NCBI GenBank assembly: GCA_028289585.1
Contig: JANQPI010000026.1
Location: 1-64,000 of the forward strand
Direction of reading: 5' to 3'
Length of the DNA: 64,000 nucleotides
From: Candidatus Zixiibacteriota bacterium
Lineage (GTDB): Bacteria; Zixibacteria; MSB-5A5; GN15; FEB-12
Under the pieces are notes generated by a model, which made no database searches, was not told where the DNA came from, and worked only from the letters and a program-made list of their open reading frames with translations. This document shows positions 3,030 through 38,413 of this stretch, one piece after another (positions within the stretch are counted from its first letter, which is position 1; every line of letters starts with the position of its first letter). Both the position numbers and the translations under genes were made by a program.

Positions 3030-3208
3030 CGGTCTGTTCGCCAGAAAGCCAAGTGGGTCATATGCGCCAGTATGTGCGTAACTGGTTTAGCCACCAAGTG
3101 CAATTCCGTATTCCCGCTCGCTGACTTCGGAGGTTGCGTTGTCGCTAGCACAACGTAGTATTCCCTATTGCCAATCTAGCGCATCAAAAATGCGGAGAGA
3201 CTCGGGTA

Positions 3209-3667
3209 ATGAACACTGCTCACGCAATCGCTCACCACATCCGAACACTTCACGTCGGGCCCAACTTCACCGCGTCGGACATGAAATCGCAATTGTCCGA
3301 TGTCAACGTACAGAAGGCGACTGCCTCAATCGGTCAGCACAACACAATTGCCAAACTCACCTTCCATGTGAACTACTACGTTCGGGCCGTGCTGGGAGTA
3401 TTGAAGGGTGGTCCGCTCGATGCCCATGACAAGTTCAGCTTCGATGCTCCGCCAATCCAATCTGAAGAGGACTGGCAGCTACTCGTGAAGAAAGTTCTGG
3501 CCGATGCCGAAGAGCTCGCTGACATCGTTGAGACCCTACCCGAGGAACGATTTGCCGCCGACTTCGCCGATCCCAAGTACGGTTCGTTGCACCGCAATCT
3601 GATCGGCTTGATCGAACATACCTACTACCATCTCGGGCAGATTGCGATTCTCAAGCGCCTTATCTGA
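3209..3667 (+). CDS. DinB-like / DUF1572-type metal-dependent helical bundle protein
   Basis: The product of 152 residues looks like a four-helix DinB-superfamily protein. Candidate metal ligands are histidines in SIGQHNTIAKLTFHVNYY and in the C-terminal EHTYYHLGQIAIL, which match the spacing of the DinB His triad. Family members include thiol-dependent S-transferases and many proteins without known function. ATG at 3209 follows CTCGGGTA, a weak ribosome site. No operon partner is evident. Confidence 0.75.
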   Translation: MNTAHAIAHHIRTLHVGPNFTASDMKSQLSDVNVQKATASIGQHNTIAKLTFHVNYYVRAVLGVLKGGPLDAHDKFSFDAPPIQSEEDWQLLVKKVLADAEELADIVETLPEERFAADFADPKYGSLHRNLIGLIEHTYYHLGQIAILKRLI

Positions 3668-3878
3668 TGGTTGAGTCAGTATAGACGCAGGCGTTTTTCG
3701 GCCACGCGGGGAATCGCTTGGTTCCGCCGAGGCTGCCAGATACATTCGCCACCGACCCCTGAGTTAACCCGAGAACAGGCCATGATCACACTCTCGGTTC
3801 GCCTTGCTTTGGGGTTGGCTCTGGTACTCTGGCTAACCAAACGTATTTGCCACTTCCGTACAGGAGTTGACAACGTCA

Positions 3879-4643
3879 ATGCCGTGGGATCCAAATCAGT
3901 ATTTGCGCTATGCTGATAAGCGGGAACGCCCCGCCTATGAGCTACTCGACCGCGTTCCCGTGACCTCACCGGAACGCATCTATGATCTGGGATGCGGATC
4001 AGGGAATACGTCTCTTCTGCTCAAGCGGCGATGGCCGGACGCAAAAGTGACAGGCATTGATAACAGTGCGGCGATGTTGGATAAGGCCCGTACGGAGTCA
4101 ATCGATGTGGACTGGCAAGAGGCCGACATCGACGAGATTGACCTGTCCGACTCACCTGATCTGATTTACTCCAATGCGGCTCTACACTGGGTTGATAGCC
4201 ACGAGACACTGCTGCCGCGACTGGTGATGTTCCTCAAACCGGGCGGTGTGCTTGCCGTTCAGATGCCGGTCAATTTCACTGCGCCGTCGCACACTCTTCT
4301 TTTCGATCTGGCCACGGAGGAACCATGGCGCGAGTGGCTGGAGAATCTTCGACCGAGCAATCCAGTCGGTACGCCCGAATGGTACTGGCGAATCCTCTCG
4401 TCCCATTGCCGCGATATCGACATCTGGACGACAACGTATCTTCAGGTGATGTCGGGAGACGATCCGGTTCTCGAGTGGGTCCGCGGCTCGGCTCTTGTCC
4501 CGTTTCTTGATCGTCTTCCCAATGAGCATCGCGAGGCGTTCCTGTCTGCCTACGGTGTGCGATTGCGGGAGGCGTACCCCCAACGATCAAGCGGAGAGAC
4601 GCTCTTTCCCTTTACGCGGTTGTTTCTCGTTGGTCAACGGTAA
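3879..4643 (+). CDS. tam: Trans-aconitate 2-methyltransferase
   Basis: The protein reads MPWDPNQYLRYADKRERPAYELLDRV and then the SAM-binding motif IYDLGCGSGNTSLLLKRRWP, with VTGIDNSAAML (motif II region) and SNAALHWV. Later segments, GGVLAVQMPVNF, DIWTTTYLQVM and AYPQRSSGETLFPFTRLFLVGQR, line up end to end with E. coli Tam as I recall it. Tam methylates trans-aconitate, which forms spontaneously from cis-aconitate and inhibits aconitase. The ORF track starts at a TTG at 3867, directly abutting CAGGAG; the ATG at 3879, 12 bases from that ribosome site, matches the family N-terminus better and is chosen here. Confidence 0.88.
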   Translation: MPWDPNQYLRYADKRERPAYELLDRVPVTSPERIYDLGCGSGNTSLLLKRRWPDAKVTGIDNSAAMLDKARTESIDVDWQEADIDEIDLSDSPDLIYSNAALHWVDSHETLLPRLVMFLKPGGVLAVQMPVNFTAPSHTLLFDLATEEPWREWLENLRPSNPVGTPEWYWRILSSHCRDIDIWTTTYLQVMSGDDPVLEWVRGSALVPFLDRLPNEHREAFLSAYGVRLREAYPQRSSGETLFPFTRLFLVGQR

Positions 4644-4744
4644 CGTCGGGCTACGGCGCTCGACCTGAATCGAGTTGTCTATTCTGCAGACGCCGAATTT
4701 CGAGTGATAGCGTCAGACCGAAACTGAAAATACAGGAGGTAGCA

Positions 4745-5140
4745 GTGTTTCCCGAATCATCGATGGCCCTGACCCATATGCTGGTCGTCAGTGATCTTTC
4801 CTCAGCGAAAACGTTTTACTCCGACGTTCTCGGTGCCGAAGTCTACCGCGAGTACGGTGGAACGTCGTGCGTCCTTTCGTTTCTCGGAACCTGGCTTCTC
4901 CTCGTCACCGGGGGGGAGCCAACCCAGGACAAACCCAACACGACCTTTGCGCCACCACATGACCCCGATCGAGTCAGTCATGCCATGACGATTCGGGTTC
5001 CCGATTGCGTCGCCGCCTACAAAACGTTGCATGAACGGGGGGCCATGTTTCTTACGCCTCCTGTTGACTGGGGAGCGGAGATCCGCTGCTTCTTCCGTGA
5101 TCCCGACGGTCACCTGTGGGAAATCAGCGAGGCGCGATAA
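4745..5140 (+). CDS. VOC (glyoxalase/bleomycin resistance/dioxygenase) superfamily protein
   Basis: The product of 131 residues shows the paired beta-alpha-beta-beta-beta modules of the VOC fold: MALTHMLVVSDLSSAKTFYSDVLGAEVYREYGG at the start and a closing FFRDPDGHLWEISEAR, whose Glu is a typical metal ligand. Translation starts at a GTG preceded by AGGAGG at good spacing. VOC proteins range from glyoxalase I to extradiol dioxygenases and resistance proteins, so the substrate cannot be told. Confidence 0.82.
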   Translation: MFPESSMALTHMLVVSDLSSAKTFYSDVLGAEVYREYGGTSCVLSFLGTWLLLVTGGEPTQDKPNTTFAPPHDPDRVSHAMTIRVPDCVAAYKTLHERGAMFLTPPVDWGAEIRCFFRDPDGHLWEISEAR

Positions 5141-5166
5141 TCCTGAGTTCATGGGTCACATTATAG

Positions 5167-5188
5167 TTCCTGATATCCGAGTCAGGAA
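5167..5188. promoter_or_regulatory. Inverted-repeat operator upstream of the Rrf2 regulator gene
   Basis: TTCCTGA-TATCCGAG-TCAGGAA is a perfect 7-bp inverted repeat with an 8-bp spacer, ending 12 bp before the regulator start codon and just downstream of a possible -10 box (TATAGT, 5162-5167). The same arms and spacing recur at 5692-5713, so this is probably the autoregulatory site of the Rrf2 protein. Confidence 0.75.
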
Positions 5189-5200
5189 TTATCATAGGGC

Positions 5201-5641
5201 ATGGTTCTTTCCAAGACATGCTCCGACGCAATCCGTGCTACCTATGCCATCGCTCATCTGGTCGAAGAACGAGATGTCACCTATGTCCCGATTCGCGATG
5301 TTGCCGATGAGGTCGGGATGTCAGCCCACTTTCTGGGCAAGATTGTCCAGCCGCTCCTTGAAGCCGGAATTTGGACCTCCTATCGCGGCCCGAACGGTGG
5401 GTTGGGGTTGAGTCGGTCGCCCCGCGAGATATCGCTATTGGCGATTGTCGCGGCCACGGACGGGCTCGGTGTGTTCGAGTCCTGTCTCCTGGGCCTGCCC
5501 CAATGCGGTGGGCATAATCCCTGTCCGGTACATGATCGTTGGGGAGCGCTTCGGGAGGCCTTGCAGGAGGCGTTCGAGCGCTCTTCAGTGGCCGATGGGC
5601 TCAATGCCTACCGCCAACGCGGCCGCAGTAAGCCTTCCTGA
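5201..5641 (+). CDS. Rrf2-family Fe-S transcriptional regulator, NsrR/IscR-like
   Basis: The product of 146 residues has the Rrf2 winged helix (CSDAIRATYAIAHLVEERDVTYVPIRDVADEVGMSAHFLGKIVQPL, wing RGPNGGLGLSRSP) and a cluster-binding loop with three cysteines, ESCLLGLPQCGGHNPC. The spacing C-x6-C-x5-C is close to that of NsrR and IscR, which use three Cys to hold an Fe-S cluster. It stands directly upstream of a nitrite ammonification locus, and identical inverted repeats flank both promoters. I infer a nitric-oxide or redox sensor that represses the nrf locus and itself, as NsrR does elsewhere; the ligand is not proven by sequence. Confidence 0.88.
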   Translation: MVLSKTCSDAIRATYAIAHLVEERDVTYVPIRDVADEVGMSAHFLGKIVQPLLEAGIWTSYRGPNGGLGLSRSPREISLLAIVAATDGLGVFESCLLGLPQCGGHNPCPVHDRWGALREALQEAFERSSVADGLNAYRQRGRSKPS

Positions 5642-5648
5642 GCGAAAA

Positions 5649-5666
5649 AAGTGATTCTTTTCACTT
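5649..5666. promoter_or_regulatory. CRP-type activator site
   Basis: AAGTGA-TTCTTT-TCACTT is a perfect inverted repeat containing GTGA-N6-TCAC, the core of CRP/FNR-superfamily binding sites. Its centre lies about 42 bp upstream of the transcription start predicted from the adjacent promoter, the usual class II activator position. It begins 8 bp after the regulator stop codon; lack of a following T-run argues against a terminator. Confidence 0.5.
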
Positions 5667-5693
5667 GCTCGTGGCGTCCGTATGGCCAATATT
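5665..5693 (+). promoter_or_regulatory. Predicted promoter of the porin-nrfHA locus
   Basis: TTGCTC (5665-5670) and AATATT (5688-5693) are separated by 17 bp. The -35 box is poor (3 of 6), which is expected for an activator-dependent promoter, while the -10 box matches 4 of 6. The CRP-type box overlaps the -35 side and the TTCCTGA/TCAGGAA operator overlaps the start site. Confidence 0.4.
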
Positions 5694-5713
5694 CCTGACA
5701 ACAGAGTCAGGAA
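5692..5713. promoter_or_regulatory. Second Rrf2-type operator, in front of the nrf locus
   Basis: TTCCTGA-CAACAGAG-TCAGGAA has the same 7-bp arms and 8-bp spacer as the site at 5167-5188, with an unrelated spacer sequence. It overlaps the predicted -10 box and transcription start, a position suited to repression. It also shows that the longer ORF-track start at 5682 is wrong. Confidence 0.78.
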
Positions 5714-5750
5714 ACTGGAAAGGGGCCGGGGTCGGCCGGGAGGAAATCCG

Positions 5751-7022
5751 ATGAAACGAGCAGGGTGGCTTGGCTGCCTCATCATCGCAGGCGTTGCAAC
5801 GGTCGGCGCGGAAACCTCAATCGACATCACAGGCAATGTCCGCGTCCGGACCGAGCTCGATAAGCGGAGTTTTCTCAGCAACGCGATCGTGCGGGACTAC
5901 ACGGACCTCAGAACTCGCCTCACGGTTTCGGCGAGTCGAGATGAGAACGCGAAAGCGGTTATCCAATTCCAGGATAGCCGGCGGCTTGGCGGTCAAAATG
6001 GTACCGGTGCGGACCTGTCCGGCACGCTCAACAACGGCTTGAATGTCGATGTTCACCAGGCCTATCTCTGGGTCAATCATCTCTGGTCGGGTGGCTTGGG
6101 TCTTCAGGCCGGCCGCTTTGAGGTTAATCTCGGTTCGCAACGCGTCTTTGGGGCTGTCGGATGGCAGAACGTCGGACGATCGTGGGAGGGACTGCATACC
6201 TGGTGGTCGGGCAAGTCAGTCGCCGTTCACGGGTACTGGCTGAAACGCCGGGAGCTTAACTCGCCGACTGAGAACAACGACTTCACGATAGTCGGCGGTA
6301 ACCTCGCCGCACCGGAGATCGGTCTTCAGGTATTTGTCTTTCTTGAGAACGATAACAATCGCTTTGTCGCCGGGGAGATAACACCCGTCGACGCTCTGAA
6401 CCGAGTTTCTGCCGGACTCTATGCCAAGCGAACGTTCGGAGCTGTCGACATCGAAGCTAATGGTGTCTACCAATTCGGCACGCAGCGAATCGTCGATCCT
6501 CAGGCAATCCCCCTCATGGCTGGTGAGCAGGATATCGCTGCCTTCCTCGCCACCTTTGAAATAGGTGTGACCGTAGCGCCCGAGGCCAAAGCACGTCTCG
6601 CCGCTGCTGTCGACTTTGCCTCTGGCGACGACGACCCGACTGACAACGAGTTTTCAGCCTATAACAATCTCTACTACACCGGACACAAGTTCCGCGGCTT
6701 CATGGATTACTTCCTCGCGTCAAATCCAGAGGGTCTCATCGACTTGATTCTTCGGGGTTCGGTGGCGCCCGCACCGAAATGGATGCTGAAAACTGATCTG
6801 CATCTTTTCCAAACGGTCGAAGACTACACCGTTTCAGGTTCAACCGAAACGAGTACCTCGGTCGGCACGGAAATCGATATCACGCTTGTCACAACGAGTA
6901 TTCCCGGATTCACCTGGCAGACCGGGTTCTCGGCGTTCCTTCCCAGTGAGGATTTCGCGGGTCCCGATGCTGATCCGGGGATCTGGGTTTACCTGATGGG
7001 AATCGTATCGTTCGGAGGATAA
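5751..7022 (+). CDS. Outer-membrane porin, alginate-export-like beta-barrel
   Basis: The protein (423 residues) starts MKRAGWLGCLIIAGVATVGAETS, a clear signal peptide, at an ATG preceded by GGGAGGAAAT. The rest is a beta-barrel with alternating hydrophobic strands, many Asn/Asp/Gly turns and a segment, LGLQAGRFEVNLGSQRVFGAVGWQNVGRSWEG, typical of alginate-export-type porins. It is the first gene after the Rrf2/CRP-type control region and precedes nrfH by about 140 bp. The likely job is letting nitrite or other small anions pass the outer membrane for NrfA; this is inferred from position. The ORF-track start at 5682 lies in the operator and lacks a signal peptide. Confidence 0.8.
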   Translation: MKRAGWLGCLIIAGVATVGAETSIDITGNVRVRTELDKRSFLSNAIVRDYTDLRTRLTVSASRDENAKAVIQFQDSRRLGGQNGTGADLSGTLNNGLNVDVHQAYLWVNHLWSGGLGLQAGRFEVNLGSQRVFGAVGWQNVGRSWEGLHTWWSGKSVAVHGYWLKRRELNSPTENNDFTIVGGNLAAPEIGLQVFVFLENDNNRFVAGEITPVDALNRVSAGLYAKRTFGAVDIEANGVYQFGTQRIVDPQAIPLMAGEQDIAAFLATFEIGVTVAPEAKARLAAAVDFASGDDDPTDNEFSAYNNLYYTGHKFRGFMDYFLASNPEGLIDLILRGSVAPAPKWMLKTDLHLFQTVEDYTVSGSTETSTSVGTEIDITLVTTSIPGFTWQTGFSAFLPSEDFAGPDADPGIWVYLMGIVSFGG

Positions 7023-7682: not shown

Positions 7683-9102
7683 CACACCACGCAGCATATT
7701 TTCACGTGGCTGGTTCTACATCATTCTCATCGTTGTAGTCGCAGCGGCCACGGTAGGCGTTACCTCACTACTGCTGAATGTCGCCGACAGAAAGGCCGAG
7801 GAGCGCACTCCTTTCGTACGACTGGTAGAGGTTGATGAAAACACAACCGATCCCGCAGTGTGGGGAAAGAACTGGCCGAAGCAGTATGATACGTACAAGC
7901 TGACGGCAGAGCATACCCAGACGACATACGGTGGGCACGGTGGAAGTGAAGCGTTGCCGGAGCAGAAGATTGAGCGCGATCCCTGGCTCAAACGCATGTT
8001 TCTGGGCTATTCCTTTGCGCTCGACTACCGGGACCGCCGGGGGCATGCCTACATGCTTGAAGACCAGGAGCAGACAAAACGGCAGAATGTTCCACTTGCG
8101 GGCTCATGCCTGCACTGTCATGCCTCGGTGATGCCATTGTATCGTGAACTCGGCGACGGGGATCCAGCGGTTGGTTTCGAAATGACTCATGCGATGTCGT
8201 ACTGGGAAGCCAATAAGATGCTTCATGATATGGGGCACGCTCACCCGGTCTCCTGTGTTGATTGTCACGATCCACAATCAATGGCGCTTCGCGTGACTCG
8301 TCCTGGACTTATTCAGGGGATCGAAATGCTCGCTGAGGGGAACAGCGAGGTTCCCTATCTTCCATCGGTGCAGCGTTGGAGAGATGGCGCTCGCGATAAG
8401 CCGTATGATATCAATGCGGATGCGTCACGCACAGAAATGCGCTCGCTCGTGTGTGCGCAATGTCATGTGGAGTACTACTGTGCCAGCGACTTCAAGCTGA
8501 CCTTCCCGTGGGGTAACGGGTTGACTGTTGAGCAAACCGAGCAGTACTGGAATCAAACAACTTTGACCAGTGGTGAACGGTTCTTCGACTACAAGCATAA
8601 GGAAACCGGAGCAGCAATTCTCAAGGCACAACATCCCGAATACGAGCTGTGGAGCGAAGGCGTTCATGCTCGAAACGGCGTAGCGTGTGCGGACTGCCAT
8701 ATGCCGTATATGCGCGATGGGGCTACCAAGGTCTCTGACCATTGGGTTCGGAGCCCTCTTTTGAACATCAACAACGCGTGCCAGACATGCCATAAGTCCT
8801 CGGAAGAGGAGATCAAGGCACGAGTTGCCAAGATCCAGGATACAAACTACGGACTACTTCAGAATGCCGGTGAAGCGATTGTCGACCTCATCGAAGCGGT
8901 GTTGGTGGCACGGGAAAACGGTGCGACTGAAGAAGAGCTTACCAAGGCGCTCGAGTATCAGAGGCAGGCACAATGGCGACTCGATTTCATTGCCGCTGAA
9001 AACTCAATGGGATTCCATGCCCCGCAGGAGGCCGCCAGAATCCTAGGCGAGGCAACCAACCTGGCACGGATGGGACAGATCTCAGCTATTCAGACGTATT
9101 AA
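7675..9102 (+). CDS. nrfA: Ammonia-forming cytochrome c nitrite reductase NrfA, all-CxxCH variant
   Basis: The protein (475 residues) carries an uncleaved-looking N-terminal anchor ([22 protein letters not shown]) and five heme sites: CLHCH (145-149), CVDCH (194-198), CAQCH (260-264), CADCH (338-342) and CQTCH (369-373). NrfA reduces nitrite to ammonium with six electrons in the periplasm. The active-site elements CAQCHVEYY (Tyr) and EGVHARNG (His331) and an Arg in YRDRRGHAY are present. In the classic enzyme the first site is CxxCK, where Lys ligates the catalytic heme; here it is CxxCH, as in a minority of NrfA clades such as Campylobacter. The rest of the sequence is collinear with NrfA and length is normal. 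Confidence 0.93.
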
Positions 9103-9295
9103 CATGCTCGAAAGGAACTGACTCATCTACGCACATTCTGTGAGAGTTGCACGCAACGTTGGAGGCCGACGACAGTGACCAGCCGATTCCATTCGTCAAC
9201 AGACCGGATACTACTCAGCCCGGTTATGTCTGGCACACTTGATCTGCACAACGGATGGTTTGTGACCCTTCACGCCATGTCGGAGTGATTGTCCT

Positions 9296-10405
9296 ATGCT
9301 GACCGTAACAACGAATGCCAATGCTGCCGACACATCGTTGGTCATTCCAAAAGGGAAGAAGCGAACCCTTAAGGAACGCTTGCCGATCGGGCGATTCCGC
9401 CTCGGGGTGCAAATCGCTTTCTCTCTGTTGTGCGTATGGATCGGGATAGAGTTCATGCTGTTTGTCGCCGGTCTCGCGCCCGACGCCGCGGGACCGATGG
9501 TGAGGCGACCACCGGGGGTTGAGGGCTTTCTCCCGATTTCAGCGCTGATGTCGCTCCAGTACTATCTTCTGACCGGAACGATTCACCCCTTTCACCCGGC
9601 CGGACTCTTCATCCTGCTTGCTATCATCTTGGTCTCACTCGTCGCCGGTAAGGCATTCTGCTCGTGGATGTGTCCGGTCGGCCTGATATCGGAAACGGTC
9701 GGCGATCTCGGCCAGCGCCTCTTTGGGCGGCCACTACATCTGCCACGCTGGCTTGACTGGCCGTTGCGGTCGTTGAAATACCTTCTGCTTGGGTTTTTCG
9801 CGCACGCCATCTTTGTGGTTATGGGAGCAACGGCTCTGAAACAGTTTCTTGACACGCCCTATAATCTGATGGCTGATGTCAAGATGTATCACTTCTTCGC
9901 CGACGCGAGTCAGACGACGATCATCGTTCTTGCGGTTCTGATCGTGCTCTCGTTCGTCTTCAACCGCTTTTGGTGCCGATACCTCTGTCCGTACGGCGCT
10001 CTCCTGGGGATTGTCGGAATCCTGAGCCCCAACAAGATCACGCGCGATCCGATCTCCTGCATCGATTGTGGGCGATGCGCCACGGCTTGTCCGTCACGTA
10101 TCCCGGTCGACCGCCGCAAGACGGTTGTTTCTGATGAATGTACATCCTGCCTCACCTGTGTGGCATCGTGTCCGGTGCGCGGTGCTCTCGAATTGAAGAC
10201 CGTCGGACGAAAACAAGCGATCAGCCCCCGCCGGATCGCGATTGCTATCGTCGCCACGTTCATGATCGTAACGGGTACGGCGATGGTTACCGGGTACTGG
10301 GATAACAACGTCCCGGTTGATCACTACCGACAACTCTATCCGATGATCGAGTCGATGGGCCATCCGACATCCACCCAGGAACTCGACGAGCTCAACCGCC
10401 CCTAG
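9296..10405 (+). CDS. Membrane-bound polyferredoxin, NapH/CcoG-like
   Basis: This protein of 369 residues has about five to six membrane segments and two cytosolic Cys motifs at membrane edges, AFCSWMCPVGL and FWCRYLCPYGAL, which define the NapH/RdxA family. Two [4Fe-4S] ferredoxin sites follow, CIDCGRCATACP and CTSCLTCVASCPV, then a last membrane segment and short tail. Such proteins move electrons between quinols and periplasmic or cytoplasmic partners. Placement after nrfHA, 193 bp downstream, suggests a support role in nitrite respiration. The ATG at 9296 follows CGGAGTG. Its TAG stop shares CTAG with the opposing gene's stop. Confidence 0.82.
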   Translation: MLTVTTNANAADTSLVIPKGKKRTLKERLPIGRFRLGVQIAFSLLCVWIGIEFMLFVAGLAPDAAGPMVRRPPGVEGFLPISALMSLQYYLLTGTIHPFHPAGLFILLAIILVSLVAGKAFCSWMCPVGLISETVGDLGQRLFGRPLHLPRWLDWPLRSLKYLLLGFFAHAIFVVMGATALKQFLDTPYNLMADVKMYHFFADASQTTIIVLAVLIVLSFVFNRFWCRYLCPYGALLGIVGILSPNKITRDPISCIDCGRCATACPSRIPVDRRKTVVSDECTSCLTCVASCPVRGALELKTVGRKQAISPRRIAIAIVATFMIVTGTAMVTGYWDNNVPVDHYRQLYPMIESMGHPTSTQELDELNRP

Positions 10406-33416: not shown

Positions 33417-34265
33417 TTACAACGGAAACGAAAGTTGAATGATCGGTGCGGTTATCTCGGATTCCCGCACGATCGCGTTACTGTCATCAAAGGTGGCAAA
33501 CAACTCACCGACACCCCAGCCGGCGACCGCCCCGACAGCGACGTCAAGGAACCAGTGCTTGTTCGCATGGATTCGCGACAGACCGACATAACCCGCCCAG
33601 CCGTAGAGAACAACCGGAGCAACCCAGCCCCACGTGTCGAATTCGCTGCCTGAAAGTCGTGTTCGCATCACCGCTCGTGTCCTGATGTTGACCCAAGTGG
33701 CGGCGTAGAAGGCGCTCGACGTATGGCCCGAGTAGAACGATTCGCGCCAGTCGCCACGCTCCGGATCACCGGTGACACGAGCGGAGTCGGGGTAGAGATA
33801 GGCGAGTGGGCGTTGTCGACGGATCAGCTTTTTGGCCAGATCAGTCGCACCTTTCTGAGCCAACGCGCCGGTCCAGTAGAGAAACTGAGTCTGGCCAATA
33901 TCACGGCCGCGTTCTCCACGTGGCTCCATCGCATCGAGACTCGCCAGAGCTGCCGCATGAGCGATGATATTGATGAACGCGGCACTCGACGGATCCATGA
34001 AGTTGCGATACCCCGGTTTGGGGTCCGCTCCCAGCCAATCAGTCAACGACTGTTCGAAACCAAGTGGTTGCCGCCAATTTGGTCCCCGATCCTCCGTGGC
34101 GACATGTACCCACTGGCTAATACCAAACAGCGCAACGGTGCCGCCGGCGATGCCAGCGATTTCTCCGGCGTCAAGGTAATCTCGTTCCTGAGCGGGTGAC
34201 GAGTGGGCTGCGATCAAGAATGCCGAGACGACAATGATGCCAAGAAGTGATCGCAGATCAGTCAT
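33417..34265 (-). CDS. PAP2-superfamily phosphatase, exported or membrane-associated
   Basis: The product of 282 residues has an N-terminal hydrophobic/signal segment (LLGIIVVSAFLIAAHSSPAQ) and the three PAP2 motifs: KKLIRRQRP, SFYSGHTSS and SRIHANKHWFLDV. Such enzymes remove phosphate from lipid phosphates such as undecaprenyl pyrophosphate or phosphatidic acid at the outer face of the inner membrane. It is the last gene of a four-gene envelope operon and its start overlaps the upstream lipoprotein gene by 8 nt. Confidence 0.85.
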   Translation of the reverse strand: MTDLRSLLGIIVVSAFLIAAHSSPAQERDYLDAGEIAGIAGGTVALFGISQWVHVATEDRGPNWRQPLGFEQSLTDWLGADPKPGYRNFMDPSSAAFINIIAHAAALASLDAMEPRGERGRDIGQTQFLYWTGALAQKGATDLAKKLIRRQRPLAYLYPDSARVTGDPERGDWRESFYSGHTSSAFYAATWVNIRTRAVMRTRLSGSEFDTWGWVAPVVLYGWAGYVGLSRIHANKHWFLDVAVGAVAGWGVGELFATFDDSNAIVRESEITAPIIQLSFPL

Positions 34266-35967
34266 GGCGCTGCACGCCTACAAGCTGCCATTTATTGTCG
34301 TCATCGTGATACCACAACCAGAGATCAACGTGGTGGGTCGCCCAATTACTCTCCGATCGTTCCGTTGTCAGTCGCAGGCGGAAGAGCGGTGATGCATCGG
34401 GATTGGTGCGTTTTGCGTCCCACGCTGTTTGCATGGCCGATACCGTTTCTGAGGGGACCGTGATCTGCTGTTCACGTGTCCGGGGGAGCACTGTGATTAT
34501 GTTTCCGTCGAAACGGACTTCACCGCGAGTCTCGCCGCTTGTAACCAAACCCCAGTCCTGGAGCAAGTCATCCCACGATACAACCAACGAGCCGTTGCCG
34601 TCGTCGCTTATCGCAAAGCGGTCAAGCGTACTTGTGGCTCCCAAGTAGGCGCGACCGATCTTGTCGCGTCGCTCGCGGAGAATACGAAGCATCTCGGTGC
34701 GTACTTCCGGCCGCGTGAAATAGGCGGCATCTACCAATGCCTCCAGATCGTCATCCCGAAATGCCATGACGAGTTTGGCTCCCCAGAAGGCGTCCCGATG
34801 GGTCATGTTTTCAAACGGCGGAATCGGGTATCCGGGTTTCCAGCGTTTCGGATTGAACTGCTCACTCTCAAAGTAGCCAATCTCTGGGTATGTGATCGGG
34901 CCAATCTTCTCCCAGGGCCAGACATACAGTCCCAGGGACAGGCTCGTGAGAAAGATGTCTTTCAGGTCGAAGTAGTTATGGTAGCCGCGACGTCGTCCAT
35001 ACGGTCGATCAGATACGGTTCCCATAACCGTACCAAAATCGAGTAGATAGTGTCGCACATACCCGGTGTCATCGTTGCCTACGAATGAGTTGATCGTGTT
35101 GGCGTCTTTGATGTCCCAGTGATTGAGCCAAGCGCAGAGAATTTTAAGCGCTCGAATCTCCCGTCGGTTCTCCGCCGGACACCAGTCATTCGGATCATCG
35201 GACCGTGTCCCGGTGAACGACCACGGTCCCATGACGTTGGGAATCAGCTTCGATGCCAGCACGCGATAGTAGCCATCGGAGCTCGCTTGAACACGAGCCA
35301 GGATGCCGTCAAGCGTCTCCGTCGTGAACAGTACGCGTTCCCCGTCAACTTTGTACGTCAGCCCCTCTTTAATCTCAAGCGAGTCGCGGTGGAAGTACGA
35401 GATATGCTCCTCCGCCACGAAGTACCCGGCGGCATGAAAGACGCGTCCGGCAATGGCGGCGGCACCGGTCGCAAGCTCGGGAAAACCAATACGATCAAAC
35501 TTTAGAATGTACGTATCACCCTTCGGGTCGGTGATCCAGAAGCCGGGGGTGACACCGCCCACTTTTGGGCGCGAGACAACCCACGTACCGGTCGTATCAG
35601 GCGGAGCCGTGCCGGCACCGGACATCATCTTCTTGCGGGAGAGGGGAGTAAAGTAATGGCGATTGGTGAACCACGATGAGTTCGGGACCTCGTCGTAGCT
35701 GTTGATGTTCCACGATTCCTGCCGATTGCCGAAAATGATGCGCGTCGAACGATCGACATCGAGCAACTGCTGGATCTGATTAAACGTCCCGCGGCGCACA
35801 GCATCCCACGCGATACTCTCCGACGACTCCTCAGGCTTCGGAATGGGGCGGGCATCATTGTCACGCCAGTGTGGGTCTTCGGGGGTCAGCTTCGGGGCCG
35901 ACGATCCGCATCCGATGAAGAGAGCCATCACGGTGGTGATGCTGAGCGTTACCCAGAGCCGGTTCAT
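34258..35967 (-). CDS. Probable lipoprotein with protein-kinase-like catalytic motifs
   Basis: The product of 569 residues begins with a lipoprotein-type signal (LSITTVMALFIGCGSS; Cys20). I do not recognise an established family. Inside, the spacing of possible kinase elements is striking: a beta-strand Lys in TYILKFDRIGFPELATGA (K156, with a following Glu), HWDIKDANT (residues 283-291, compare H-x-D-x-K-x-x-N of kinase catalytic loops) and LLDFGTVMG (DFG at 310-312). This recalls HipA, CotH or Fam20-type atypical kinases, which include secreted enzymes. It lies between an Omp85-like barrel gene (ATGA overlap) and a PAP2 phosphatase gene. Kinase activity is inference. Confidence 0.6.
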   Translation of the reverse strand: MNRLWVTLSITTVMALFIGCGSSAPKLTPEDPHWRDNDARPIPKPEESSESIAWDAVRRGTFNQIQQLLDVDRSTRIIFGNRQESWNINSYDEVPNSSWFTNRHYFTPLSRKKMMSGAGTAPPDTTGTWVVSRPKVGGVTPGFWITDPKGDTYILKFDRIGFPELATGAAAIAGRVFHAAGYFVAEEHISYFHRDSLEIKEGLTYKVDGERVLFTTETLDGILARVQASSDGYYRVLASKLIPNVMGPWSFTGTRSDDPNDWCPAENRREIRALKILCAWLNHWDIKDANTINSFVGNDDTGYVRHYLLDFGTVMGTVSDRPYGRRRGYHNYFDLKDIFLTSLSLGLYVWPWEKIGPITYPEIGYFESEQFNPKRWKPGYPIPPFENMTHRDAFWGAKLVMAFRDDDLEALVDAAYFTRPEVRTEMLRILRERRDKIGRAYLGATSTLDRFAISDDGNGSLVVSWDDLLQDWGLVTSGETRGEVRFDGNIITVLPRTREQQITVPSETVSAMQTAWDAKRTNPDASPLFRLRLTTERSESNWATHHVDLWLWYHDDDNKWQLVGVQRHD

Positions 35968-37289
35968 AGGCCCGCACCAAGTTGAAATGCGAAGCGTGTC
36001 GTCTCTTGGGATGTTGATATGCGCATCGTCGCGATGACACCATCAGCACCCCACAACCGAATACCGCCCCCCCAGGAGAATCGCCAGTTGCGCCAACTGA
36101 AGTCATTGGTGAACGAACTGAACACTCGACCCTGCTCATAGAAGAGAAAGCCATCAAGGATATCCCAGATCGGATAGCTGTATTCGATCAGCCCACGGAG
36201 GGATTCCTTATCGATAAAGCGTTCCGGTTCATAGCCGTACAATCCGGCATTGCCGCCCAACGACGATTCCAGGTAAAATGGTGGTTCCTCATTCTCTGTT
36301 GGGTCGACCACATCGATCGAGTTTGCCTCGACAAGGAGCGTGAAAACCCGCTCGCGGAAGAACTGTATCCGCTGGTATAGCTCTACGTGGGTCCGGAAGT
36401 ACTGTAGGTTATCCGACCGTGCGACACCCTGATGGTATAGCGTCTGGGCTCGGATCTGACCACCGGTCGTAGGCCGGAACGGCTGGTTCTCCCAGTTGAG
36501 TTGCAACCCAAGTCCACCGAAGAGGTAGCGAGTCGAGGCAATGTCCTCGGTGGCCAGACCGAACGTATCGATGATTGCATCCAGGTCAGAAACGAAGTCA
36601 TCGTCTTCGCCATCGCCGAGATTGTGCGCGGCGTAGCCGGCGTTGCCTAAAACTGTTAACGATTGGCTGAGGACAAACCGGGCATCGGCTTCCAGCGTTG
36701 TCGTTTCCAGCGTAAAGTTAACCTCATCCCGCTGCTGGGAACCATTACCAATTCCGAAGAACGGCTCACGAGTGTTCTTTGTGTACCGTCCGGAGATGAC
36801 CAACTGAAACGGCTGCCGGTTACGTCTGCCAAATGAGGCTTCAGCCAGAACCGATGCATAGTTGTACTGGGAATACGAACCGGCCAGGCGCCATTCGTCA
36901 CCTGACGTAGCGATATCTCTCAGCCGGAACCCCAAACCGCCGGCGAACCCCTCTCGACCTGAATACGAGATGATTGGAACGACGGGGAGAGTGGGATCAA
37001 GAATACCCTCAATGATCTGTTTGCCAAACTGTTGTTCGTAGCCAAGCCAGACGAGACCATAGGTCGCCTGTTCCAGCACCCAGAAGGGTGCGTAGAGGAT
37101 GGTTGATGGAACTCGGGCAAGTTTGGTAGAGAGGGGAAGCTCCGGGGGGCGAGGATCCCGCGTCCGGGTTGTATCGATGTCATAGGCCTCAGCACCTATG
37201 ACACCAACAGTCACTATGCTAAGACACGCTACTGCAACGTATCGCGAAAGGCTCCGGAAGGTGAGTCGGTTCGATCGATGAATCCCCAT
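35964..37289 (-). CDS. Omp85/BamA-TamA-like outer membrane protein
   Basis: The product of 441 residues has a signal peptide (YVAVACLSIVTVGVIGAEA), a short periplasmic part without recognisable POTRA repeats, and a C-terminal barrel of the bacterial surface-antigen type: GGNAGLYGYEPERFIDKESLRG matches the conserved strand pair with its turn in this superfamily, followed by FLFYEQGRVFSSF and a terminal strand ending FQLGAGL. It may export or anchor a product at the outer membrane. It overlaps the upstream TatT-like gene by 61 nt and the downstream lipoprotein gene by 4 nt. Confidence 0.75.
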   Translation of the reverse strand: MGIHRSNRLTFRSLSRYVAVACLSIVTVGVIGAEAYDIDTTRTRDPRPPELPLSTKLARVPSTILYAPFWVLEQATYGLVWLGYEQQFGKQIIEGILDPTLPVVPIISYSGREGFAGGLGFRLRDIATSGDEWRLAGSYSQYNYASVLAEASFGRRNRQPFQLVISGRYTKNTREPFFGIGNGSQQRDEVNFTLETTTLEADARFVLSQSLTVLGNAGYAAHNLGDGEDDDFVSDLDAIIDTFGLATEDIASTRYLFGGLGLQLNWENQPFRPTTGGQIRAQTLYHQGVARSDNLQYFRTHVELYQRIQFFRERVFTLLVEANSIDVVDPTENEEPPFYLESSLGGNAGLYGYEPERFIDKESLRGLIEYSYPIWDILDGFLFYEQGRVFSSFTNDFSWRNWRFSWGGGIRLWGADGVIATMRISTSQETTRFAFQLGAGL

Positions 37290-38062
37290 GAGGCGAGCTT
37301 TTCGCGCGCTTTCTCCTTGATATGTGTATCCTCAACCAGGCCGTGGACCGGCCGAGGGAAGTCAACGACACTTTGCAGAAGGGCGCAAGCTCGCTCTTTC
37401 TCATCTTGATCCCAGAGAAATTCAGCGAGGAAGCGGCGATTATAGAGATTATCGGGGAACTGTGCGAAGGCGCGCTCATAGTATGCGCGCGCCTTCTTCT
37501 TCGACGGCCAGCCCATCAACAACGGTATCTTGGGTGTCCGGGCGTGCACGCCACCCAGGACTCGCCAGCCTCCCCCATCCGCGAACGTTGAATCGAGGTA
37601 GGCCGCTCGTTCGGAGTGGCGACGGATTTTTTTGGGAACGCCACGCCCGAGAATGTCACTCTTACGATGGAATTCAGTCCACATCGCCCAGTTTATTGCC
37701 AGCCAGAGATGCACGCCCGCCTCATCAGGATAGCGTTTAGCCAGCATATCACCGACCGCCACGCCGCGATCATATGCCGATTGTCGGGCATCATCGGTCG
37801 CCGACGCATAGTAACCGCGGAATACGATTGCCCGGAGATACTTCCACGCAATTTCCGGCTGCCGGTCACTCGGACAGAGCACGAGCGCTCGGGCGTAGAC
37901 GGTAATCGCTTCATCGATAATCATGGAGTCCGCGAGAAGCTGCTCACGATCGAAATCGATATGGCGCTGCTCGAAGAGAACGTCAGCCTCCGCCAGACAG
38001 GTGCAAGGCTCCGCTAGTGGCGCTGCGAGCGTAAAGCCAATCAGGAGCAGACTAAGTGTCAT
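37229..38062 (-). CDS. TatT-like helical repeat (TPR-type) periplasmic protein
   Basis: From ATG 38062 (GGAAGG upstream) the protein has a signal peptide, MTLSLLLIGFTLAAPLAEP, then helical repeats. The segment KKARAYYERAFAQFPDNLYNRRFLAEFLWDQ resembles the TatT family of TRAP-transporter-associated trimeric periplasmic proteins. The ORF track start 58 codons upstream gives a non-signal extension and is rejected. It is the first gene of an operon of four overlapping envelope genes. Confidence 0.68.
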   Translation of the reverse strand: MTLSLLLIGFTLAAPLAEPCTCLAEADVLFEQRHIDFDREQLLADSMIIDEAITVYARALVLCPSDRQPEIAWKYLRAIVFRGYYASATDDARQSAYDRGVAVGDMLAKRYPDEAGVHLWLAINWAMWTEFHRKSDILGRGVPKKIRRHSERAAYLDSTFADGGGWRVLGGVHARTPKIPLLMGWPSKKKARAYYERAFAQFPDNLYNRRFLAEFLWDQDEKERACALLQSVVDFPRPVHGLVEDTHIKEKAREKLASWGFIDRTDSPSGAFRDTLQ

Positions 38063-38413
38063 CGGACGAACCTTCCGGTAGACAGTGCTGGCATGATGCG
38101 AGGAGACGCGAAATTGGGGCCGAAAAAGTATCCCAACGAATAGTGGTAGATTTGATGTAAGTGCGTAAAGATACGGTTTCCCTGGCACTGGCAGCGACAG
38201 CCTAAGTACCTCAAAAATAACCAGATATCCGCTCAACAGTAGTTAGCTTTCGGTAAATGCTTGATGAATAGCAGGTTAAGAGGACTTTCCTGGGCGGTTC
38301 TGCGTGGGTGTCCGTCATATGGGGTGAGTTCCTATCCAGCTCGAATTTGGACTGGCAAATTTCGTCCCGAATGCTATACTCCCCCTAGGTAATCCTGGGA
38401 GAATTGTAACACT
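38063..38413. other. Intergenic region between divergent envelope operon and dockerin-like gene
   Basis: This 351-bp AT-richer gap lies between two divergent start codons. Apart from a candidate promoter for the rightward gene at 38353-38380, I see no RNA gene, repeat or strong hairpin. Confidence 0.5.
38353..38380 (+). promoter_or_regulatory. Candidate extended -10 promoter
   Basis: TGCTATACT (38372-38380) is an extended -10 element; TGGCAA, 16 bp upstream, could be a weak -35. The start codon lies 33 bp downstream, with GGGAGA between as ribosome site. Confidence 0.35.

Follow-up and report, generated by a model that had tools for sequence, protein, structure and literature searches.

What does an exported protein carrying the catalytic motifs of a kinase do in a bacterial envelope, and is it still a kinase? 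The question is raised by a gene on the minus strand of a 64,000-nucleotide stretch of contig JANQPI010000026.1 (assembly GCA_028289585.1, Candidatus Zixiibacteriota bacterium), the whole of which is referred to here as the window. The open reading frame 34258–35967 starts with ATG, includes the stop in its end coordinate and encodes 569 amino acids (aa). It is single-copy in its own genome, and no plasmid copies were found. From the DNA alone, an earlier note had described a lipoprotein signal followed by TYILKF, HWDIKDANT and LLDFG in the order of a kinase, and had left the choice between an envelope kinase and a pseudokinase. The signal and the three motifs were indeed present in the translation. 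The best reading, which we hold with rather more confidence than doubt, is that the gene encodes the kinase of an extracytoplasmic module made of a HipA-like kinase and an Omp85 barrel, to which NTT exchange possibly delivers ATP.

The candidate catalytic residues lie in DTYILKF (K156), NHWDIKDANT (D285, K287 and N290) and HYLLDFG (D310), N290 following D285 by 5 residues and D310 following N290 by 20. Among 89 non-redundant relatives from more than 10 phyla, the four residues singled out by the earlier note were essentially invariant: K156 in 87/87, D285 in 89/89, N290 in 88/89 and D310 in 89/89. F311 was also found in 89/89, and D258, D261, R269, R272, H306 and G316 were fixed as well. The first 32 relatives had already given the same picture (K156 in 30/30; D285, K287, N290, D310, F311 and G312 each in 32/32). 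Positions around the catalytic residues, such as 284, 286 and 289, varied freely. The lack of conservation that the earlier note had named as grounds for refutation was not seen. The lysine is preceded by G138 (87/87) and G142 (86/87), and the family thus has the ATP-binding lysine after a glycine-containing loop, the D-x4-N motif and the downstream magnesium-binding aspartate that characterize the HipA-like superfamily. As judged from the alignment, the conservation pattern is that of an active site and the motifs are not a product of chance. Since the residues usually lost in pseudokinases are all retained, the pseudokinase half of the earlier proposal is disfavoured, and its extracytoplasmic kinase-like half is supported.

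Neither Pfam nor NCBIfam has a family that claims the protein, in agreement with the earlier note, which recognized none. When 78 family members were scanned one by one against Pfam with hmmscan, two families were matched most often, HipA_2 by 13 members (best E 7.9e-4) and HipA_C by 9 (best E 0.018); the others were matched by one member each, except one matched by five. The HipA_2 and HipA_C matches inspected in detail fell on the N-lobe around K156. All scores were under the Pfam cut-offs (the best was 19.2 bits, against a gathering cut-off of 27 for HipA_2), and the family is therefore filed as a distant relative, a member of neither. Profile–profile comparisons were made with hhalign using alignments of 30 HipA_2, 13 HipA_C, 15 CotH and 27 acidobacterial PI3/PI4-kinase-like sequences. 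The kinase-like domain, approximately residues 129–350, aligned with HipA_2 (PF20613) over both lobes with a probability of 95.6% (E 1.2e-8, valid for a single comparison), and K156, D285, N290 and D310 were all paired with the corresponding HipA_2 residues. Controls made of reversed alignments and of six unrelated neighbour families did not exceed 2.8%. Homology to HipA-like kinases is thus well supported by the sequence comparisons, and from these patterns we infer a kinase fold and catalysis. It is hardly credible that the motifs are coincidental and the fold unrelated: the weak similarity of single sequences would fit such a view, which is contradicted by the invariance at exactly the four catalytic positions and by a HipA_2 profile match that agrees with the motifs and whose controls were clean.

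Of the HipA, CotH or Fam20 style suggested earlier, the HipA part stood. CotH (PF08757) was rejected, with an hhalign probability of 0.3% against the 15 CotH sequences, which came from the same phylum, and no hmmscan match in the 78 members. Fam20C (PF06702), searched with hmmscan only, gave no match in the 78 members at E values up to 1. The acidobacterial PI3/PI4-kinase-like proteins matched the family weakly in hhalign, over the C-lobe only, and were set aside. These proteins (loci L178–L204) have short PI3/PI4-kinase profile matches and the motif NxDRxxGN...LIDH; in hhalign their agreement was good with HipA_2 (96%) and weak with the exported family. A sequence search of solved structures with the single protein returned weak RACK1 matches in the C-terminal region, which were discarded. 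The same search gave no match with the A1 profile and one weak unrelated match with A2 (78-sequence alignment).

The N-terminus, MNRLWVTLSITTVMALFIGC, was read as a signal sequence ending in the lipobox F17-I18-G19-C20, slightly atypical and containing the cysteine expected of a bacterial lipoprotein. A simple lipobox pattern (a regular expression) was found in 61/89 relatives. The others showed a near-miss lipobox, a truncation at the contig end or, mainly in Acidobacteriota and Gemmatimonadota, an ordinary signal peptide; signal peptides were judged by eye. Export looks general in the family as far as these N-termini tell. Universal lipoprotein status was rejected, several relatives carrying a plain signal peptide.

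The family was present in 36/132 genomes searched in the window's phylum, one match being marginal. A scan of GTDB species contigs recovered 251 stretches encoding members, and the best 80 of these 251 were used for the survey of loci and phyla. By their labels, the sources of these 80 included Zixibacteria, Calditrichota, KSB1, Marinimicrobia, Latescibacterota, Gemmatimonadota, Krumholzibacteriota, Acidobacteriota, Poribacteria, Aminicenantes and others. In one Latescibacterota locus (L098), the kinase-like gene occurs twice in tandem, at 4549–6396 and 7771–9594. A sister family exists in Acidobacteriota, with shorter proteins (approximately 325–370 aa as read), often with clear signal peptides. 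It keeps motifs of the WKVK, NWDLKxxNN and SDLG types (K, D-x4-N, D) without the C-terminal region, and aligned with the long family with a probability of 99.7% (hhalign, E 1.7e-26). No Pfam cut-off was reached by the sister family. Its members are found in loci L217 (587–1618 on the plus strand and 3088–4347 on the minus strand, two copies within 4 kb), L218–L222 and L224–L226.

The closest companion of the kinase gene is a gene for an Omp85-family barrel. Adjacency was tested with an Omp85 profile on the 70 loci whose upstream flank measured 1 kb or more. In 69/70 loci the kinase gene adjoined an Omp85-family gene of the same strand, and in 70/70 once the exception (L092) was recognized as an artefact of where the frame had been taken to start: the barrel frame extends from 4844 to 5953 and the kinase starts at 5953. 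A fusion of the two proteins in this locus was considered and rejected, as the 1149-aa frame includes a stretch of N and continues across sequence that is unrelated; the barrel there is a separate overlapping frame. The two genes usually overlap or touch, and in one locus (L084) their order is reversed. Adjacency in 70/70 loci makes the kinase–Omp85 pair a conserved unit. In the window itself, the barrel matched NCBIfam Omp85_fam with E 1.5e-7, under the model's cut-off, and no other library model linked it to Omp85; 47/52 aligned copies of the barrel match PF01103. The copies measure approximately 430 aa, which leaves little room for POTRA domains.

So constant a pairing could also mean that the kinase fold no longer transfers phosphate, the protein being a nucleotide-binding pseudokinase or a structural accessory lipoprotein of the barrel, in a role like that of the lipoprotein partners of BamA. 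The one-to-one association, a location where ATP is normally scarce and the catalytic motif HxDxKxxN, in place of the NxDR type of HipA_2, would all agree with this. We consider it unlikely: the residues that pseudokinases normally lose stay constant across many phyla, and the recurrent presence of an ATP/ADP transporter would be left unexplained.

This transporter, TLC, was the next most common neighbour family after Omp85, with matches above the Pfam cut-off near the kinase. It occurred as 440-aa proteins and as 900–1000-aa forms with HEAT repeats and sometimes a cyclic-nucleotide-binding domain (cNBD); one copy matched the solved ADP/ATP carriers 9j3j (E 3e-13) and 9j3n (E 1e-10). The link is both physical and statistical. 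TLC genes lay within 6 kb, in the fetched flanks, in 39/80 loci, and in 23/37 of the loci with full flanks. In the window's phylum, 29 genomes had kinase and TLC, 6 the kinase only, 3 TLC only and 91 neither (Fisher p 1e-19, ignoring shared ancestry). The kinase-only group includes one genome, G111, whose contig carries TLC in locus L052 and which was probably outside the TLC sample. In Acidobacteriota, counting strong kinase matches only, the corresponding numbers were 36, 5, 40 and 166 (Fisher p 7e-17, with the same proviso). The joint presence or absence of the two also varied within genera (e.g., g4, g20, g27 and g40).

The periplasm is not known to hold a separate pool of ATP. Taken with the repeated TLC/NTT association, this suggests that these transporters feed the kinase. 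We propose the following model. The protein would be a lipoprotein that is exported, probably to the outer membrane, and whose HipA-like kinase domain most likely still transfers phosphate. It would function as a single unit with the Omp85-family barrel of the gene immediately upstream. The kinase would be tethered, probably on the periplasmic side, beside the barrel, which itself would sit in the outer membrane. TLC/NTT proteins would exchange cytoplasmic ATP for periplasmic ADP. Phosphatases encoded nearby, PAP2 in the window and a calcineurin-like enzyme in other lineages, could reverse or process the mark. In this model the substrate, the side of the membrane and the direction of ATP transport are what we infer.

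The same genes could be arranged the other way round, for nucleotide import, with the Omp85 barrel as the pore, the kinase-fold protein binding or processing nucleotides, the phosphatases trimming them and TLC/NTT taking them up as in intracellular parasites. This we find improbable. A binding protein would need no intact catalytic aspartate, the host genomes are ordinary-sized and presumably from free-living bacteria, and we know of no Omp85 proteins acting as nucleotide porins. Phosphatases in the same loci would suit it, as would the characterized NTT proteins, which, according to Major et al. 2017 (PMC5381601), take up ATP or other nucleotides into intracellular parasites and plastids; the same paper describes NTTs in free-living bacteria and leaves their role there open.

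It is also conceivable that the enzyme is active with another chemistry or on a substrate that is not a protein, by AMPylation or by phosphorylation of envelope lipids or glycans. Kinase folds with intact sites can AMPylate or glutamylate, as do SelO and SidJ, and the window neighbour belongs to the PAP2 superfamily, which includes lipid phosphatases. Nothing specific speaks against such a reaction, although PAP2 is not a conserved neighbour; we regard this possibility as distinctly unlikely.

Several points weigh against a HipA-like kinase module fed by NTT. The window protein, searched by itself, matched no Pfam or NCBIfam family, the hhalign E-values hold for one comparison at a time, and classical HipA_C (PF07804) was rejected by profile–profile comparison at 2.5–5.6%, at or barely above noise. 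The two genome sets of the window's phylum, 132 for the kinase and 129 for TLC, are not identical, and the Fisher tests disregard common descent. Neither of the two TLC genes in the genome of the window lies on the window's contig. TLC without the kinase in 40 acidobacterial genomes indicates that TLC has other uses, and the direction of its transport is not readable from sequence.

The broader picture is more tentative. There may exist among outer-membrane bacteria a widespread extracytoplasmic phosphorylation system in which a HipA-like kinase is anchored next to a dedicated Omp85 barrel, with NTT antiporters exporting ATP in return for ADP and exported phosphatases as counterparts; we consider this possible and somewhat doubtful. 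If it were true, the NTTs of free-living bacteria would gain a function and the envelope an ATP-dependent step of signalling or assembly. We know of few bacterial kinases outside the cytoplasm, one reason being that ATP is not expected in that location. A family unnamed in Pfam and NCBIfam, spread over many phyla, with its active site kept and its own outer-membrane barrel, is of interest in this respect, and the tie to TLC offers a testable answer to two questions, the supply of an envelope kinase and the role of NTTs in free-living bacteria.

Table 1. Coordinates in the window of the kinase-like gene, its parts and its two flanking genes.
Feature	Position	Strand	Basis
Coding sequence, exported HipA-like kinase-fold protein (putative), 569 aa	34258..35967	-	Homologues, conservation, HipA_2 profile match
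Signal sequence with lipobox FIG-C20	35908..35967	-	Read from translation
Kinase-like domain, ~residues 129-350 (Gly-containing loop KVGGVTPGF, K156, catalytic motif, DFG-like motif)	34918..35583	-	
K156 codon, ATP-binding lysine equivalent	35500..35502	-	87/87; paired with HipA_2 Lys
D285-N290 codons, catalytic motif HWDIKDAN	35098..35115	-	Conservation; paired with HipA_2 D-x4-N
D310 codon, metal-binding Asp equivalent (LLDFG)	35038..35040	-	89/89; paired with HipA_2 LIDH
C-terminal region, residues 445-569	34261..34635	-	Less conserved; absent from short sister family
Omp85-family outer-membrane barrel, 441 aa, no recognisable POTRA	35964..37289	-	NCBIfam Omp85_fam
PAP2-superfamily phosphatase, overlaps kinase 3' end by 8 bp	33417..34265	-	PF01569 E 4e-16

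The PAP2, kinase and Omp85 genes of the window share the minus strand and overlap at their ends (Table 1). The kinase gene had been described earlier as fixed between the barrel and PAP2; both do flank it in the window, and the barrel proved constant. PAP2 was rejected as a fixed partner and is a lineage-specific neighbour, being found in 12 of approximately 80 relatives' loci, mostly labelled Zixibacteria, and directly adjacent in only a few. A calcineurin-like phosphatase family was present in 14 loci. In 11 Zixibacteria-type loci (L035, L036, L037, L038, L039, L041, L045, L048, L051, L077 and L081), an exported family of approximately 410–450 aa lies directly downstream of the kinase; the one member scanned had no Pfam match. 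Upstream of the Omp85 gene of the window and overlapping it, a TPR protein (37229–38236, minus strand) shows weak similarity to the TRAP-transporter T-component and BstC profiles; the loci of the relatives yielded no such protein. One of the TLC genes of the window's genome belongs to an array of NTT-HEAT, cNBD and response-regulator genes (L215, 10450–17130). There, with gene names read from sequence, a PAS-type histidine kinase comes before the NTT-HEAT gene, and after it come a cNMP-binding protein, a response regulator with a SpoIIE-like tail and a second response regulator.

Searches of the libraries and of open-access papers returned no description of this family or of a kinase–Omp85 gene pair; the kind of kinase is known, and the exported long form with its Omp85 partner seems not to have been described. 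Several known systems resemble parts of it. The neighbouring transporters belong to the NTT/TLC family (PF03219), whose NTT-HEAT then cNBD architecture is described by Major et al. (PMC5381601); the part of that paper used here mentions no kinase or Omp85 partner. The 'noNterm' Omp85 proteins (PMC4104836) are likewise barrels without an N-terminal extension domain, but we found no account of a constant kinase-like lipoprotein partner for them. The CotH spore-coat kinase is a kinase-like protein acting outside the cytoplasm, but there is no sequence support for a link to the exported family. The HipA/HipT toxin kinases (PF07804) share N-lobe similarity in 9/78 single-member scans. They differ from the exported family, which has no conserved adjacent DNA-binding antitoxin: no conserved small DNA-binding gene was found among the clustered frames, those of at least 110 aa. 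The best supported relative is HipA_2, through the two aligned lobes and the four paired catalytic residues. A search of 128 genomes from the window's phylum turned up no HipA_2 member. The frames of the HipA_2 members found here measure approximately 260–320 aa, whereas the exported family, with its HxDxKxxN rather than NxDR-type motif, reaches approximately 570 aa, has additional regions at both termini and is accompanied by an Omp85 gene.
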